Shown here in pieces: positions 44,834 to 52,611 of a stretch of DNA of 64,000 bases (the first letter of the stretch is position 1; every line of letters begins with the position of its first letter). The translations under genes were made by a program, and so were the position numbers. Origin of the DNA: Methanocalculus natronophilus (lineage in GTDB: Archaea; Halobacteriota; Methanomicrobia; Methanomicrobiales; Methanocorpusculaceae); contig NZ_JBCEXH010000001.1 in the NCBI RefSeq assembly GCF_038751955.1, forward strand, positions 266,300 through 330,299, read 5' to 3'. The notes beneath the pieces are model-generated. The model ran no database searches and was not told where the DNA came from. It worked only from the letters and a program-made list of their open reading frames with translations.

Positions 44834-45349
44834 ATGAAACTCCTGCTCGCAGTAGCACCAGACCGGTTCCGTGACGAAGAGCTCACCGAACCGATGCGGG
44901 TTTTTACCGCCAGTGGAATCGAAACGGTCATCGCATCAACAAAGAAAGGCGATTGCTATGGCATGCTTGGCGAGATCGTCCAGGCTGAGACAACATTTGA
45001 GGACGTGACAGCAGACGAGTTTGACGGCATCGTCATTGTCGGAGGAATGGGAGCACAGGACTTCCTCTGGAGCAGTGATCCGCTCATCGGGCTTGTCAGA
45101 GCGTTCCATGACAGCGGAAAAGTAACCGCTGCCATCTGCCTCTCTCCTGTCGTCCTTGCGCTCGCAGGCATTCTGAAGCAAAAGAAAGCCACGGTCTTTG
45201 CAAGCCCGGCATCCACACGCACCATGAAGGAGATGGGTGCAGAACTGCTTGATGACGCGGTTGTCGTTGAGAACAGGATTGTCACAGCAAACGGGCCGGC
45301 AGCCGCACAAGCATTTGGAGACGCGATTGTCGGGTTGCTCAGGCAGTAA
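44834..45349 (+). CDS. DJ-1/PfpI superfamily protein
   Basis: The 171-residue protein has the nucleophile cysteine in AAICLSPVVLA (nucleophile elbow) and the GIVIVGGMGAQDFLW motif near the middle. It resembles the PfpI/YhbO group of deglycases or cysteine hydrolases. ATG 44834 (MKLLLAVAPDRF) starts the family fold; the 26 codons before it in the frame are not conserved. It is the first gene of the tightly packed unit with GT2, TPR, DUF2791 and TPR proteins: the next gene starts one base after its stop. Confidence 0.87.
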   Translation: MKLLLAVAPDRFRDEELTEPMRVFTASGIETVIASTKKGDCYGMLGEIVQAETTFEDVTADEFDGIVIVGGMGAQDFLWSSDPLIGLVRAFHDSGKVTAAICLSPVVLALAGILKQKKATVFASPASTRTMKEMGAELLDDAVVVENRIVTANGPAAAQAFGDAIVGLLRQ

Positions 45350-45350
45350 G

Positions 45351-46049
45351 ATGAATGCAGAGATTCCGGAAGAAGACTGTACCTTAGTCATTCCGGCATA
45401 CAACGAGGAGGAGAGGATTGAAAACCTCCTCATTGAATGCCTGGATTTTCATGGCGAAGTGATCGTTGTCATTGACGGGAGCGACAGAACCGGGGATGTT
45501 GTCGCTTCCTTCAAGGAGGAACACCCCGGGACAGGGATCATCGCCCTTTACTCCGAAACGCGCCTCGGAAAAGGCGGCGGGATTGCCATGGGGATGAAAA
45601 GCGCCTCCCGTTCATATATCGGCTACCTTGATGCGGATGGAGCTGCCGGGATCAGCGAGATGAAGAAACTTTTTGCCAGGCTTGACCGGTATGACGGGGT
45701 GATCGGATCGCGATGGGTCGAAGGTGCTCATTTGCCGACTCCCCAGAGCATGACCCGGAAGATTCAGAGCCGGATTTTCAATATAATCATCCATATCCTC
45801 TTCGGTATCAGCTTTCTGGACACCCAGTGCGGGGCAAAGGCATTCCGGCGTGAGGTGATCGAAGATGTCCTTGATACTATCAGGGCAACGGGCTTTGAAT
45901 TTGATGTCGAGCTCATCTGGAAGGCAGAGAAGGCAGGTTTTACCATTCTTGAGCAGCCGATTGTATGGAGCGATAAGGGCGGCTCAACCGTCAGGATCCC
46001 AGATACGCTCGCAATGCTGGTTGGGCTCCTGAAGATCCGGTTTTCATGA
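45351..46049 (+). CDS. Family 2 glycosyltransferase (dolichyl/archaeal lipid-phosphate type)
   Basis: The 232-residue GT-A enzyme has VIPAYNEEERIENLL, the DXD region YLDADGAAGIS, and RWVEGAHLPTPQSMTRKIQSR plus DTQCGAKAFRR, features of dolichyl-phosphate mannose or glucose synthases. It lacks C-terminal membrane segments. It could load a sugar onto a lipid phosphate for N-glycosylation or surface-protein decoration. The ATG at 45351 immediately follows the DJ-1 stop. Its stop overlaps the next start by four bases (ATGA). Confidence 0.87.
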   Translation: MNAEIPEEDCTLVIPAYNEEERIENLLIECLDFHGEVIVVIDGSDRTGDVVASFKEEHPGTGIIALYSETRLGKGGGIAMGMKSASRSYIGYLDADGAAGISEMKKLFARLDRYDGVIGSRWVEGAHLPTPQSMTRKIQSRIFNIIIHILFGISFLDTQCGAKAFRREVIEDVLDTIRATGFEFDVELIWKAEKAGFTILEQPIVWSDKGGSTVRIPDTLAMLVGLLKIRFS

Positions 46050-47851
46050 TACAGCCAGCAGATTCAAAGGATCGTATCCAGCATGCCTATCAGCTCTATG
46101 AAGAGGGATCCTTTGAAGCGTCGCTGGCACTCTGCGATGGATGGAAGGATTATGCATCCCTTATCCTGGCTGCCGAAAACCTCCTCGAACTCGGGAGGCT
46201 CAGTGATGCAGAGGCAGCATTTTGCGATCTCATACAGAGTTTGCCAACGTCCTCACAGCTGCATTTCGGCCTGGCTGAAGTACTGAGGAGAGGGGGCAAT
46301 CCGGGTGCTGCATCCGAATATGCAGAAGCAATCCGCCTCGACCCTTCCAACATCCGGGCGCTCAGGCGGTATGCAGAAACCCTCGTCTCCCAAGGCGATC
46401 ACCGGGCTGCCATACCAGTTCAGAAGGAGCTTGCCAGGAGGAGCGGGGAGAAGGACGATCTCTCTTTTTTGATGCAGTCGCTGATCGCAATCGGCGAGGG
46501 AAAAGAGGCAACCGACCTCTACAGGCGCTCGGCATTTGCAGGGGTGCATACCACCACCTGGGTAGAGGCGCTCATACAATCGCGGTGCTTTACCGAAGCA
46601 GCAGGCGCTGCTGAAGAGGCATGGAGAGATACAGGAGATATCGCATTTCTCCGCCTCTGGCTCTCTGCGCTTGCCCGTATAGATCCAGGGGAGGCAGAGA
46701 GGCTTTACCGGCACTACATTCCTGATTATCCCGATACCAAACTTCTCTTCTCTGCAGCACTCCTGGCTAAAAGATGCGGAAATACGACGTACGCAGAGGA
46801 TCTCATCAGGCAGATCAGGCAGGCTGAAGACGATCCCGTCTATCACCTGGTCCTCTGCGGGCTTCTTGCGGCAGGCGGCGACTATACCGGAGCTGATCGC
46901 GAATACAGGCAGCTGCTGGAAGCAGAGCTTCTGAGATTTGAAGACCTGGATTCACTGGTGATGGTCATCGGCACATATATCGACTTCCTCTGCTCGCACA
47001 TGGATATCGACGCTGCCATACAGGAGATCAAACCTCTTCTTGACCCGCACCCCTCCTGGGTCTCTCTTGTTCCGCTTGCAGAACTCTTCGAAAAAGCAGG
47101 AGAGCAGGCAGTCGCCCGTGACACCTTCTACCGCGCCTATCGGAGCGACTCTGTTTTTGGAGGAGTCCCCTATGCTGCATATCTTGCAAGGGCTGGTGAG
47201 ATGCGGGAGGCAGAGAAGGTGATGCTCTATATCCTCTCCCATATCCAAAATACAGCAAACCTTGAGATGGCTGCAGAGCAGATCATCCAGGGCAGGGAGA
47301 AACTCTACAGAAGCAGGAAAATTATTGCAGGGCTGAAAGAGAGGCTTATCCAACAGGCAGACAGCCTCTCGGCAGGGGGGAGGGAGATCCTCTCTGTAGC
47401 CTGCCTCTATGCAGCTGCAGATGCCCTCGCTGAAGGCGATTATCGTGCATGCAAGGAAGACTGTCTCCGGGGACTGGACGTGCTGCCATGCTACCCCTCA
47501 TCAATTGCGATAGAGGATTTTCTTCCGCTCCTTGCACGGGCAAAGGAATCTGCATATAGTGAAGAGCTGGTAATCCGGCTGGAGAGTGGCAGCTCTTCTG
47601 CGGATTTGAAGACGAGATCAGTAACAGATATACTCTCCCTCACCGAGAAAGAAAAGCTGGTGCTCTCGTTTCTCAGGGAGCACAGGGAGACCAGTGAGAT
47701 GGAGCTTCGGACATTTCTTGGCTCCCGCAGGGTTGGCGGGATCATAAACGAAATTATCCGGAAAAGCAGGGATGCTGGAATAACGGTTATAGAGAAGCGT
47801 GGTACAGGGGAGAAGGGTGAGATCTATGGATATGTCCGGGACGAGCAGTGA
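46046..47851 (+). CDS. TPR protein with C-terminal winged helix
   Basis: The 601-residue protein is built from tetratricopeptide-like helices (for example AYQLYEEGSFEASLALCDGW and LLELGRLSDAEAAFCDLIQ, and AEVLRRGGNPGAASEYAEAI) over about 500 residues. The last 90 residues (LSLTEKEKLVLSFLREH, then RRVGGIINEIIRKSRDAG) form a winged helix, probably DNA- or protein-binding. No enzymatic motif was found. ATG 46046 overlaps the GT2 stop and the end overlaps the DUF2791 ATPase gene by 26 bases. Tight coupling suggests that it acts with the ATPase. Confidence 0.83.
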   Translation: MIQPADSKDRIQHAYQLYEEGSFEASLALCDGWKDYASLILAAENLLELGRLSDAEAAFCDLIQSLPTSSQLHFGLAEVLRRGGNPGAASEYAEAIRLDPSNIRALRRYAETLVSQGDHRAAIPVQKELARRSGEKDDLSFLMQSLIAIGEGKEATDLYRRSAFAGVHTTTWVEALIQSRCFTEAAGAAEEAWRDTGDIAFLRLWLSALARIDPGEAERLYRHYIPDYPDTKLLFSAALLAKRCGNTTYAEDLIRQIRQAEDDPVYHLVLCGLLAAGGDYTGADREYRQLLEAELLRFEDLDSLVMVIGTYIDFLCSHMDIDAAIQEIKPLLDPHPSWVSLVPLAELFEKAGEQAVARDTFYRAYRSDSVFGGVPYAAYLARAGEMREAEKVMLYILSHIQNTANLEMAAEQIIQGREKLYRSRKIIAGLKERLIQQADSLSAGGREILSVACLYAAADALAEGDYRACKEDCLRGLDVLPCYPSSIAIEDFLPLLARAKESAYSEELVIRLESGSSSADLKTRSVTDILSLTEKEKLVLSFLREHRETSEMELRTFLGSRRVGGIINEIIRKSRDAGITVIEKRGTGEKGEIYGYVRDEQ

Positions 47852-49121
47852 GGATGAGGCAAAACTAAAGAGCATTGGAATAATCAATGCTCTCCGCCGG
47901 GGCACTGTCCCTGCTCTTGGCCTTGAACGGCTCGCTGTCGGGGTCGAATCCGAGGAGGAGGTGATCGCCGATCAGCTGAAGTATGTTGCTTCCAGCAGAT
48001 CTGAGATCAAGTTCGTCAGGGGCGATTACGGGAGCGGCAAGACCTTTTTCATCTCACGGGCCCTTGAAATTGCCAGGCAGAACGGGTTTGCGACCGCCCA
48101 TATCGTCATATCCCCCGACACTCCCCTTCATAAGCTCGCATCCCTCTACAGCGCAATCATCCGGAACCTCAAAACAGGCACTGAAGAGAACGCCCTCAAA
48201 GGTATCATTGATACCTGGATATTCGGGATAGAAGAGCGGCTTATCGATGCGTATGGTGAGGAGGACGAGGAGAAGCTGGCGCTCGCTGCCGCAGAAGAGA
48301 TAGAGACGTCACTTGCCAGGATAGCTGAAGAGAATACGGGGCTTGCTGCTGCCATCAGGACATACTACCAGGCAAACAACCGGGGCGACTTTGCAATTGC
48401 ACAGGCAGCACTCGGCTGGATAGCCGGTGAAGAGACGGTCGGCCGGGCATTCAAGGCAGAGGCAGGGCTCCGGGGAGGCGTGGATGAGGAGTCGGCGCTC
48501 CCCTTCCTCCGGGGGATCACAAGAATCATCCAGCAGGCAGGCTACCGGGGGCTTGCGGTAGCCTGTGATGAGACCGAGACAACCCAGGCATCATCGCGTC
48601 CCCTCCGTGAGCGGGCATATATCAATCTCAGGAGGATTGTTGATTCTGTCGACAGAAACGAGATGCCCGCCTCATTCTTTCTCTTCACCGGGACACCATC
48701 CTTCTTTGAAGGGCCAAAAGGGATCCGGGCGCTTCCGCCTCTCTATGACAGGATACAGATACCTGATGACGACGGGTTCAGGAACCTGCGCCAGACACAG
48801 ATCTCCCTTGAGCGGTTCGATGAGAAGAAGCTGCTTGAGGTGGCGATGCGTGTCATCGAGATCTACCGTGATGCGTATGGTGAGGTGGATTCATCCAGGA
48901 TCAACCTCAGGTTCATTCGGGTGATGATAAACAGGGTCACCAACCGGTTCGGCGGGAGGATTGATGTGATCCCCCGGCTCTTCCTCAGGTCGTTTGTGGA
49001 TCTGCTTGACAAGGCCGCACTCTATCCCGGGTTTGATCCAATGGAACAATATAGCTTTGAGAAGAGTTCCACAACAGATATTCGTGAAGAAGAACGAGCG
49101 GTGATGGAGATTGAATGGTGA
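47826..49121 (+). CDS. BrxD-like DUF2791 P-loop ATPase
   Basis: The 431-residue ATPase has Walker A in FVRGDYGSGKTFFISRAL (about residue 60), AHIVISPDTPLHKLASLYSAI, and the sensor-like VACDETETTQAS with FFLFTGTPSFFEGPKG. This is the DUF2791 family, known as BrxD in some BREX anti-phage systems. None of the other BREX genes (PglX, PglZ, BrxA, BrxL or a helicase) is in the window. The unit instead contains TPR proteins and a glycosyltransferase. ATG 47826 follows GGGTGAG; the frame upstream overlaps the TPR gene. Confidence 0.85.
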   Translation: MDMSGTSSEDEAKLKSIGIINALRRGTVPALGLERLAVGVESEEEVIADQLKYVASSRSEIKFVRGDYGSGKTFFISRALEIARQNGFATAHIVISPDTPLHKLASLYSAIIRNLKTGTEENALKGIIDTWIFGIEERLIDAYGEEDEEKLALAAAEEIETSLARIAEENTGLAAAIRTYYQANNRGDFAIAQAALGWIAGEETVGRAFKAEAGLRGGVDEESALPFLRGITRIIQQAGYRGLAVACDETETTQASSRPLRERAYINLRRIVDSVDRNEMPASFFLFTGTPSFFEGPKGIRALPPLYDRIQIPDDDGFRNLRQTQISLERFDEKKLLEVAMRVIEIYRDAYGEVDSSRINLRFIRVMINRVTNRFGGRIDVIPRLFLRSFVDLLDKAALYPGFDPMEQYSFEKSSTTDIREEERAVMEIEW

Positions 49122-49135
49122 AGAGGTGATGTGAC

Positions 49136-50026
49136 ATGGGAATCTTTGATCTGCTGAGCAAGAGCGACTTCAATAAAGGGGTTGAACATCTGGTCGCCGG
49201 GTATTATGCCGAAGCCCTTGAGTTCTTTGACCGGGCACTCGCCCGCCGGCCCCGCCATGTCGATACCTGGAACAACCGGGGTGCAGCGCTTGGCCATCTC
49301 GGCAGATACGACGAGGCGATTGAATCCTATGACCGGGCACTGGCCCTTGAACCGGGACATCTCCCGGCATGGAACAACCGCGGCAACGCACTTGAGGATC
49401 TCGGCAGGTATGACGAGGCACTTGAGTCATATGAGAAGGCACGTGCAATCAACCCCCGGCATGCCGGGACGTGGATGAATCGCGGGACTGTACTCAGCCG
49501 CCTTGGCCGGTATGATGAGGCAATTGATGCATTTGAAATGGCAGCTGAACTCGATCCAAAAAATGTGCTTGTGCATATCAGCCGGGCAGAAGCCCTTGAT
49601 TCACTTGGCAGGTATCCTGAAGCCGTGGAATCCTATGACCGGGCCCTTGACCATGCTCCGGCTTACGTGGATGCGTGGTCCCTGCGGGGAGAGTCGCTCT
49701 TCAGGATGGGCAGGTACCAGGATGCGATCGAATCCTGCTACAAGGCAATCGCGATCTACCCGGAGTTCTGCCATGCATGGTATTTCAGTGGCTGTTGCCT
49801 TGAAGCACTCGGCAAACATGATGATGCAGTCGAGGCATGGGAGACGGTGATCGGTTTTCCTGCTGAGGCACGGTTTCAGTGGTATTACCGGGGGCTTGCA
49901 CTTGCGAGGCTAGGCAGGAGTGCAGACGCAGCCGGTGCTTTTGAGGAGGCGCGTGCTGCAGCACGGCTCTGCATTCTCGATCCATCTGATGAGGAGATCG
50001 AAGACATGTGTCCATCGCATGCCTGA
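49136..50026 (+). CDS. TPR-repeat protein
   Basis: The 296 residues contain about seven classical 34-residue TPR units: WNNRGAALGHLGRYDEAIESY, then AWNNRGNALEDLGRYDEALES, TWMNRGTVLSRLGRYDEAIDAF and so on, each quoted in part. It is likely a protein-binding scaffold. It starts 14 bases after the DUF2791 ATPase and closes the unit. About 200 bases without a gene follow. No signal peptide or membrane segment is present. Confidence 0.88.
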   Translation: MGIFDLLSKSDFNKGVEHLVAGYYAEALEFFDRALARRPRHVDTWNNRGAALGHLGRYDEAIESYDRALALEPGHLPAWNNRGNALEDLGRYDEALESYEKARAINPRHAGTWMNRGTVLSRLGRYDEAIDAFEMAAELDPKNVLVHISRAEALDSLGRYPEAVESYDRALDHAPAYVDAWSLRGESLFRMGRYQDAIESCYKAIAIYPEFCHAWYFSGCCLEALGKHDDAVEAWETVIGFPAEARFQWYYRGLALARLGRSADAAGAFEEARAAARLCILDPSDEEIEDMCPSHA

Positions 50027-50260
50027 TGTATGAGCAGGTGTGGATGTACACGCTCATTCAACATCGCCCACCAGAGGGGCATTCATTTTTTGATGCTGTT
50101 CCTGTGCAATGCTACTCGAGATGAAGGAGTATGGAAACGTACACGAGAGAGTACACCTATCTTTTCTTTCCCAATGACATAGGTATTATAAACAACCATC
50201 TCAATAGTAAAGAACGGTTGTAGAGAAGAAGTGACAACAAGAGGCAGAGGTGGAGATTTC

Positions 50261-51559
50261 ATGGATAAAGCGCAGCTCATGGATGTGATCCTGCAACACC
50301 AGGAGATCTTTGCAGGGATACCTGAAGATACGATAGAACGGGATATCGACCTGCAGAGATACATGCGTGGAAAAGAGATCGTCATCATTACAGGCATACG
50401 GAGATCAGGAAAGAGCACTGTCCTGAAGCTCATTGCAGATCAGTACCAGCAACGGGATGAGTTTATCCTCTTTATCAATTTTGAGGATATCAGGCTCCTC
50501 GACATGACAACTGAGAACTATCATGATATTGAAAATATCGCAATAGAGTTGTTCTCCAGCAGGAAGAAGACTGTTTTCTTCTTTGATGAAATACAGTACG
50601 CACCTCAATGGGAGCGATGGGTAAACAACCTCCATTTCAAGGGCCATAAAGTCTTCGTCACCGGATCGAATGCGAAGATCCTGGGAGGAGAGATTGCAAC
50701 ATCACTCACAGGACGGAATGTCGTGCTGGATCTCCATCCCTTCAGTCTCCGTGAATTTTTACGGCTCAGAGAGATAGAGATACCGGATGGGCAGCTCCTC
50801 ACCTCAGATAGATCTGCCGAAATTGTCCATTATTTCAAGGAATATCTTGAATACGGCGGATTCCCCGAGGTAGTGAAAGAGGAAGACATGGAATTATCGG
50901 GATATTACTTCAATGACATCCTGAAGAAGGATATCGAAGCCCGCTATATGCTACGTGAACAGGCAGGGCTCGCACGGCTTGCCACCTACCTTGCCTCGAA
51001 TGCCACCTCCAAATTTTCATATTCAACGCTGAAGAACGTAACAGGGCTGAAGAGCACAAACACAATCAGCCAGTACATCAGGTACTTCAGGGACGCGTAC
51101 CTCTTCTATACGCTGCCTGCCTTCCATTATTCCCTGAACAAGCAGATTCAGGCATCAAAGAAAGTATATGCAGGGGACAACAGCTTCTTAAATACCGTAT
51201 CATTTTGTTTTTCTGAAAATACCGGACAGAAACTCGAGAACCTTGTTTTCCTTTATTTATTGCAGGCAAAGAAAGGATATTCCCTCTTCTATCACCAGAA
51301 TGCATCCGGGAAGGAATGTGATTTCCTGATCATGAAGGAGCCGGCTGTTCTCTCTGCCATCCAGGTATCTGCTGATCTCCAGAACAGCGAGACAAGAAAG
51401 AGAGAGATTACCGGGCTGCTTGACGCCCTTCATGAATATGATCTGGCTCTGGGGTACATCCTGACAATGGACAGTTATGGCCATGAGCAGATACAAGGAA
51501 AGGAGATCATCATCATCCCTGCATGGAAGTATATGCTCTACCCTGATCTCTATCCATAG
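50261..51559 (+). CDS. AAA_14/DUF4143 ATPase
   Basis: The 432-residue protein has the AAA_14 domain (about 25-160) with EIVIITGIRRSGKSTVLKLIA and Walker B FFFDEIQYAPQWE, followed by the arginine-rich FVTGSNAKILGGEIATSLTGR, and a DUF4143 domain with YLEYGGFPEVV and KLENLVFLYLL, ending in a PD-(D/E)xK-like GKECDFLI with IQVS. Family members are very common in methanogens, often in many copies, and their function is unknown; a mobile or defence role is suspected. The start is ATG 50261 after GAGGTGGAG. It is monocistronic. Confidence 0.88.
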   Translation: MDKAQLMDVILQHQEIFAGIPEDTIERDIDLQRYMRGKEIVIITGIRRSGKSTVLKLIADQYQQRDEFILFINFEDIRLLDMTTENYHDIENIAIELFSSRKKTVFFFDEIQYAPQWERWVNNLHFKGHKVFVTGSNAKILGGEIATSLTGRNVVLDLHPFSLREFLRLREIEIPDGQLLTSDRSAEIVHYFKEYLEYGGFPEVVKEEDMELSGYYFNDILKKDIEARYMLREQAGLARLATYLASNATSKFSYSTLKNVTGLKSTNTISQYIRYFRDAYLFYTLPAFHYSLNKQIQASKKVYAGDNSFLNTVSFCFSENTGQKLENLVFLYLLQAKKGYSLFYHQNASGKECDFLIMKEPAVLSAIQVSADLQNSETRKREITGLLDALHEYDLALGYILTMDSYGHEQIQGKEIIIIPAWKYMLYPDLYP

Positions 51560-51654: not shown

Positions 51655-52611
51655 ATGCCAAAAAACCAGTCAATAACCGATATAACCGACGGATGCGATG
51701 TTAATTCCCTCTTCCTCCTCGAAGAGATCGGGATACGCACGAAGAGAGATGATGGAAGATACCTCTATGCCACCCTTGCCGACAGCACCGGCAGGATCTC
51801 CTGCAAAATCTGGGGGCTGCCGGCACAGCCGGCTCCTGAGATCGAGGCAGTCGGCAGAAGCCTGAAACCAGGAGAAGTCTACCGGATCAGGGGGTTTGCA
51901 AAGGTCTTCAATGGCGAATGCGAGATCAATATCAATGACGGTATTGCCGATCTCGCCGCCCCGGTTACCATTCCGGCAGCAGAACACGGAGATTTTGTGT
52001 ACTCGCCGGTTGATATCAAAGAGACCGCAAAGCAGATCCAGGAACTCGCCGGGACAATCCGGAGTGGTGAGCTCAAGCTGCTTGTCTCGCTTGCACTGAT
52101 GGATGTCGGTGGTTTTTATGAAAAGCCTGCTGCCAGGAAGCGGCACCATAACTATGCAGGCGGCCTTGCCGAACACTCGTTAGAGACCGCCAGGATTGCA
52201 GTTGCCATGGCTGAAGCACAGAAGAGCTACAGGCTCAATCGCGACATCCTGCTTGCCGGAGCGATCCTCCATGATATCGGCAAGGCGCTCTCTTTTGAGA
52301 GACAGGGCCTTCTGTTTGTGGCACGTCCGGAGTATGATCTCATCGGCCACATCCCGCTTGGGGTAGCGTTCCTCACCCGGTATAAGGAGTTCCTTGATGA
52401 CGCAACCTATCTGCACCTCCTCCATATCATCCAGTCCCACCATGGCGACCACGGCGATGTCGCACCCAGAACACCTGAAGCATGGGCTGTCCACCTTGCC
52501 GATCTCGCAAGCGCAACCCTCCGGGAGATGGCAGACGATACCGCAGGGCTTGCCCCCGGGGAAGGAAAGTGGAGGGGAGAGAAGAGCAAGCGGCCGGTGT
52601 ATAGGATATAG
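51655..52611 (+). CDS. YhaM-like 3'-5' exonuclease (OB-fold plus HD domain)
   Basis: The 318-residue protein has an OB-fold RNA-binding part (LADSTGRISCKIWGLPA) and an HD hydrolase domain with HNYAGGLAEHSLETARIA, AGAILHDIGKALSFE and HIIQSHHGDHGD as metal ligands. This is the architecture of Bacillus YhaM and related 3'-5' exoribonucleases or DNA exonucleases. It is followed by a 240-base gap before the convergent hisD. Confidence 0.87.
   Translation: MPKNQSITDITDGCDVNSLFLLEEIGIRTKRDDGRYLYATLADSTGRISCKIWGLPAQPAPEIEAVGRSLKPGEVYRIRGFAKVFNGECEININDGIADLAAPVTIPAAEHGDFVYSPVDIKETAKQIQELAGTIRSGELKLLVSLALMDVGGFYEKPAARKRHHNYAGGLAEHSLETARIAVAMAEAQKSYRLNRDILLAGAILHDIGKALSFERQGLLFVARPEYDLIGHIPLGVAFLTRYKEFLDDATYLHLLHIIQSHHGDHGDVAPRTPEAWAVHLADLASATLREMADDTAGLAPGEGKWRGEKSKRPVYRI

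Follow-up and report, generated by a model that had tools for sequence, protein, structure and literature searches.

We lean toward the view that three proteins of the Methanomicrobiales, a TPR/winged-helix protein (T), a BrxD-family ATPase (A), and a BrxHI-type helicase encoded away from both (H), belong as subunits to a DNA-processing machine that is fixed in the chromosome. T and A are encoded side by side within the window, the 64,000-nucleotide stretch of the Methanocalculus natronophilus genome analyzed here, while H lies on another contig of the same assembly. BREX, from which the BrxD and BrxHI families are known, is an anti-phage defense system, as is Shango. Our best reading of the archaeal proteins is a dispersed, vertically inherited BrxD-BrxHI machine with T as its adaptor, which would serve genome maintenance or surveillance.

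The five-gene locus and the conserved T-A pair

Five open reading frames were listed on the plus strand within positions 44834–50026 of the window, and their coordinates confirmed the spacings of 1, -4, -26, and +14 bases given in the initial annotation, whose family calls (DJ-1/PfpI, GT2, TPR, DUF2791/BrxD, and TPR) all held in profile matches. The first gene (44834–45349) encodes a DJ-1/PfpI-family protein (DJ-1_PfpI, 2e-39), which is a neighbor in some lineages only, and the second (45351–46049) encodes a GT2 glycosyltransferase (GT2, 6e-21), which is a frequent upstream neighbor of T; both stand outside the core. The genes for T (601 aa; 46046–47851) and for A (431 aa; 47826–49121), an ORC/Cdc6-like AAA+ ATPase, overlap in their reading frames by 26 bases (47826–47851), and the fifth gene (49136–50026) encodes a second TPR-repeat protein (TPR_1/2), which follows A in Methanocalculus only. 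The surroundings are core metabolic, as originally described, with pyrG, guaA, and hisD as the core genes around the locus.

Two further genes of the window are recorded here. An AAA_14/DUF4143 ATPase (50231–51559) matched PDC-S01 of PADLOC (351 bits); it is present at this site in Methanocalculus loci L053, L054, and L056 and missing from L051 and L057, and it is likely mobile or frequently lost. A protein with an OB-fold and an HD domain (OB-HD; 51655–52611), which is YhaM-like at a score under the cut-off, is encoded directly after T-A in Methanoculleus and nearby in Methanocorpusculum, and is a candidate functional neighbor of T-A.

A search of related genomes for the same gene order had been suggested, and it showed conservation of the T-A pair but not of the five-gene order. 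When 394 genomes from the phylum were searched with profiles, full-length T was detected in 55, and A in these 55 and no others. In every one of them the two genes are contiguous on one strand, their profile boundaries lying -17 to +19 bases apart, and the frame of A overlaps that of T in most relatives. T-A is single copy. Among 100 relatives, no near-complete genome of the families f1, f4, and f6 lacks A, and the families f2, f3, and f5 yielded no ortholog of it; four genomes that are 71–78% complete (G024, G025, G026, and G032) were left out as evidence. The frameshift of A in G026 was rejected as real decay and is considered an assembly fault, because T and the OB-HD gene are also frameshifted there.

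Our neighborhood survey showed the complete five-gene order in Methanocalculus only, where GT2 is directly upstream of T and PfpI precedes GT2, with parts of the order missing elsewhere. The Methanocorpusculum locus reads PfpI-T-A, with PfpI beside T and no GT2 there; that of Methanoculleus reads T-A followed by the OB-HD gene, with no GT2 adjoining; and most Methanoregulaceae-type loci read GT2-T-A, with PfpI absent. The second TPR gene adjoins A only in the window and in loci L051 and L053-L057, and in Methanoregula-type loci a related TPR gene lies elsewhere, between pyrG and a thioesterase gene. In Methanoculleus, the gene preceding T encodes a large protein that was considered as a possible helicase and proved to be a PAS/histidine kinase. 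In many genera T-A lies between pyrG/guaA and hisD, and this chromosomal site is old.

Because the presence of PfpI, GT2, and the second TPR gene beside the pair differs among lineages, we regard T-A as the conserved unit, with a varying operon around it. The initial annotation had proposed that all five genes may form a single system in which an ATPase and TPR proteins would control surface glycosylation or a stress response. Such an operon would explain why all five genes are tightly spaced and why GT2 often remains beside T, but for each of the three outer genes there are whole lineages in which it is absent beside T-A. The single unit and the control of glycosylation or stress are thus unsupported, and we consider this explanation most improbable.

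Domain architecture of A and T

The ATPase is BrxD-like, as had been proposed: A matched PF10923 (BrxC_BrxD/DUF2791) at 1.9e-122 and the NCBIfam BrxD model NF033438 at 400 bits, full-length and over the curated cut-off of 350, with intact Walker motifs, and the PADLOC BrxD model matched it as well. The Walker A sequence GDYGSGKTF, the DE-x-ET motif, and other motifs are common to A and bacterial BrxD. In a recent survey, BrxD was assigned to the ORC-Cdc6 AAA+ ATPases, with no DNA-binding domain, and was described as a standalone ATPase in a tight dyad with BrxHI, whose loader it was proposed to be (PMC12839542). In its structure model, A has no DNA-binding domain of its own, and the predicted chain ends after a helical bundle. 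The best Foldseek match of A was Aeropyrum ORC2, with BrxC also listed, at low scores (best E 1.3e-3); no significant match to the PDB was obtained by sequence, and the viral contigs searched yielded no relative.

The closest non-archaeal relatives of A are about 37% identical to it and lie in bacterial type-2 BREX loci, in which BrxC/PglY, PglZ, BrxD, and BrxHI follow one another as far as contig extent and gene calls permit. In the contexts examined, namely bacterial type-2 BREX, Shango, and MAGs of family f12, relatives of A adjoin a helicase of the BrxHI/SngC type, and the BREX context is limited to distant bacterial relatives. Close homologs of A always stand with T and never with BREX genes, the opposite of the pattern (the ATPase with BREX and never with a TPR/winged-helix protein) that the initial annotation had named as counting against it. 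No PglZ was found in the window genome or in most T-A genomes, and BrxC/PglY was found in 0 of 20 T-A genomes, while a control genome gave a match; the ATPase thus lies outside any BREX locus, as had been claimed. A PglX search gave no match in the 20 genomes, nor in any control genome.

The AlphaFold2 model of T (pLDDT 90.2) predicts a TPR solenoid (residues ~4–500), a low-confidence/disordered linker (512–524), and a C-terminal winged helix (~525–598) with wing strands at residues 582–596. The description of the third gene product as a TPR/winged-helix protein is thus upheld, for the TPR part by family matches and for the winged helix by the structure model. The predicted winged helix matched no Pfam family and had no significant match to the PDB by sequence, a Foldseek search with T returned generic TPR scaffolds only, and a weak BTAD match was obtained in T by profile search.

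The unlinked helicase H

No helicase is encoded at the T-A locus, so BrxHI is not found beside A. The helicases from the BREX-2, Shango, and f12 contexts were made into a profile, which, used on the 100 relatives, found the common archaeal Lhr to be widespread and an extra, unlinked helicase of ~710 aa to be present in the T-A families. This helicase, H, which the initial annotation had missed, is encoded in the window genome (G000) on the minus strand of contig C2 at 95286–97391 (708 aa), and is recorded also at L223:8269-10395. Across the 394 genomes, H is present in exactly the same 55 as T and A, and the only other above-threshold matches were the helicases of the f12 clusters and one Shango-like helicase. 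H orthologs are 32–54% identical to the copy of the window genome and keep the invariant SF2 helicase motifs; Pfam identified only a DEAD/DEAH helicase, while BrxHI was the best-matching PADLOC model (520–558 bits), and H is ~31% identical to BREX BrxHI vs 27% to Lhr. In Methanocalculus and many others, H is close to purF. The apparent absence of H from G006 was rejected, as H is split over two contigs there, and the gene before H, first taken from its initial residues for a DNA-binding protein, encodes a thioredoxin. One genome (G420; L217 and L243) has strongly diverged copies of T, A, and H alike, with one in-frame stop in H, possibly reflecting joint decay or relaxed constraint of the three.

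The co-occurrence weighs little by itself, because a single shared loss could give the pattern. In the species tree of ligase and pyrG, Methanoculleus (f4) groups with the gene-less f2, f3, and f5, at key nodes that are weak (39–79). This is the main caveat to our reading.

Our phylogenetic analysis placed A and H in parallel: the A tree and the H tree each group the Methanomicrobiales sequences with those of type-2 BREX at a support of 100 and keep Shango and f12 outside this group. In all 55 genomes A is accompanied by a BrxHI-type helicase of matching ancestry. Similarity to A was the sole criterion for choosing the BREX loci of both trees, and the placement of H, in a tree that samples other SF2 helicases only narrowly, is therefore independent. 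The archaeal A clade is nested within BREX-2 in the A tree (support 98), while the H tree has no such nesting, so the transfer may also have run in reverse, from archaea into BREX. Evolutionary distances covaried after removal of two control genes, DNA ligase and CTP synthase, which were the only rate controls (partial r of 0.73 for A-H, 0.86 for T-H, and 0.60 for T-A), and the A-H value was reached by 0 of 2000 label permutations. When the two fastest genomes were left out, T-A and T-H dropped to 0.35, while A-H stayed at 0.74. Given pyrG, the partial correlations with ligase were 0.58 for A and 0.56 for H.

A self-sufficient T-A pair, acting without H as an ATP-driven DNA-binding regulator of host transcription or replication, would have a parts list like that of split STAND-type or ORC-type regulators. 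The constant contiguity of T and A, their mostly overlapping frames, the location of H elsewhere, the winged helix following the TPR array, and the weak BTAD match are all consistent with such a regulator. We nevertheless rate it as rather doubtful, because the distribution of H is identical, its tree placement is parallel, and BrxD-family ATPases are accompanied by a helicase in known contexts.

The proposed machine and its comparison with known systems

In the three-subunit machine that we prefer, T would bind A through its TPR array and supply a winged helix in trans to an ATPase without a DNA-binding domain, and A would assemble with ATP in the manner of ORC/Cdc6-type ATPases. The putative T-A complex would bind DNA or a DNA-protein target, recruit H, and load it or switch it on on DNA, upon which H would unwind DNA or translocate along it. 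The machine would share its descent with the BrxD-BrxHI pair of type-2 BREX, minus PglZ and BrxC/PglY. What we observed is the linkage of T and A, the joint occurrence of T, A, and H, the parallel placement of A and H in their trees, the absence of PglZ and BrxC/PglY from the window genome, and the predicted folds; that the proteins form a physical complex that loads the helicase, and on which DNA substrate and in which cellular role it would act, is inferred.

Single copy and vertical inheritance argue for genome maintenance or standing surveillance, not mobile defense, and maintenance in particular fits single-copy vertical inheritance at dispersed core loci. An antiviral role, likewise a standing one, is conceivable, given that Shango (PMC10250203) and BREX, the relatives whose function has been tested, are defense systems; T-A-H would then be a fixed chromosomal relative of one of these that blocks virus DNA. 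This seems unlikely to us, however, since all near-complete genomes sampled from three families carry T-A-H, as a single copy, at conserved sites that are dispersed on the chromosome and not island-borne, and since no nuclease, methylase, or TerB partner adjoins it (beside T-A we found no nuclease or methylase, and TerB was not among the families matched by the genes of the locus). Returning to maintenance, we tentatively entertain a history in which BrxD-BrxHI left type-2 BREX, was split over two sites, gained a TPR/winged-helix subunit, and became part of core genome maintenance in methanogens, although we would not count it the probable course of events.

These observations suggest a defense-type helicase machine working outside any defense system in three methanogen families; if true, it would be a clear case of defense machinery and core genome upkeep swapping parts in archaea. 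A natural system that keeps only BrxD and BrxHI plus one adaptor isolates the step of these two proteins in BREX and makes it testable, and it raises the question of whether BrxD loads or switches the helicase, and through which DNA contact. Some T-A methanogens are culturable, including members of Methanospirillum, Methanoculleus, Methanoregula, and Methanocorpusculum. In the papers searched we found no description of the archaeal T-A-H group, in agreement with the earlier suggestion that the ATPase and its TPR/winged-helix partner may belong to a separate, undescribed system.

The MAGs of f12 contain a compact trio consisting of a 258-aa protein of no known family, a BrxD-like ATPase, and a BrxHI-like helicase (L209:167-4322; L210:113-4281; L211:349-4517), in an order unlike that of Shango, which is possibly another small BrxD-BrxHI system.

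The archaeal machine resembles the BrxD-BrxHI dyad of type-2 BREX in that A belongs to the BrxD family and H scores best on the BrxHI model, but A and H are unlinked here, and the TPR/winged-helix protein that pairs with A was not seen in the BREX loci. In addition, the window genome has no PglZ, BrxC/PglY was not found, and the host is an archaeon, while type-2 BREX was found in no archaea in the 2026 survey (PMC12839542). Shango, which consists of TerB (SngA), an ATPase (SngB), and a helicase (SngC) and protects Pseudomonas from phages (PMC10250203), has ATPase and helicase subunits of the same kinds, and Shango loci occur in Methanoculleus and its relatives; the T-A locus, however, has no TerB, A is only ~25% identical to SngB, and Shango forms a separate branch in both trees. 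Archaeal Orc1/Cdc6 shares the parts list of an AAA+ core plus a winged helix, with Aeropyrum ORC2 as the best Foldseek match, but in the methanogens the predicted winged helix sits in T behind the TPR array and not in A, which by sequence is a DUF2791 and not an Orc1/Cdc6 protein.
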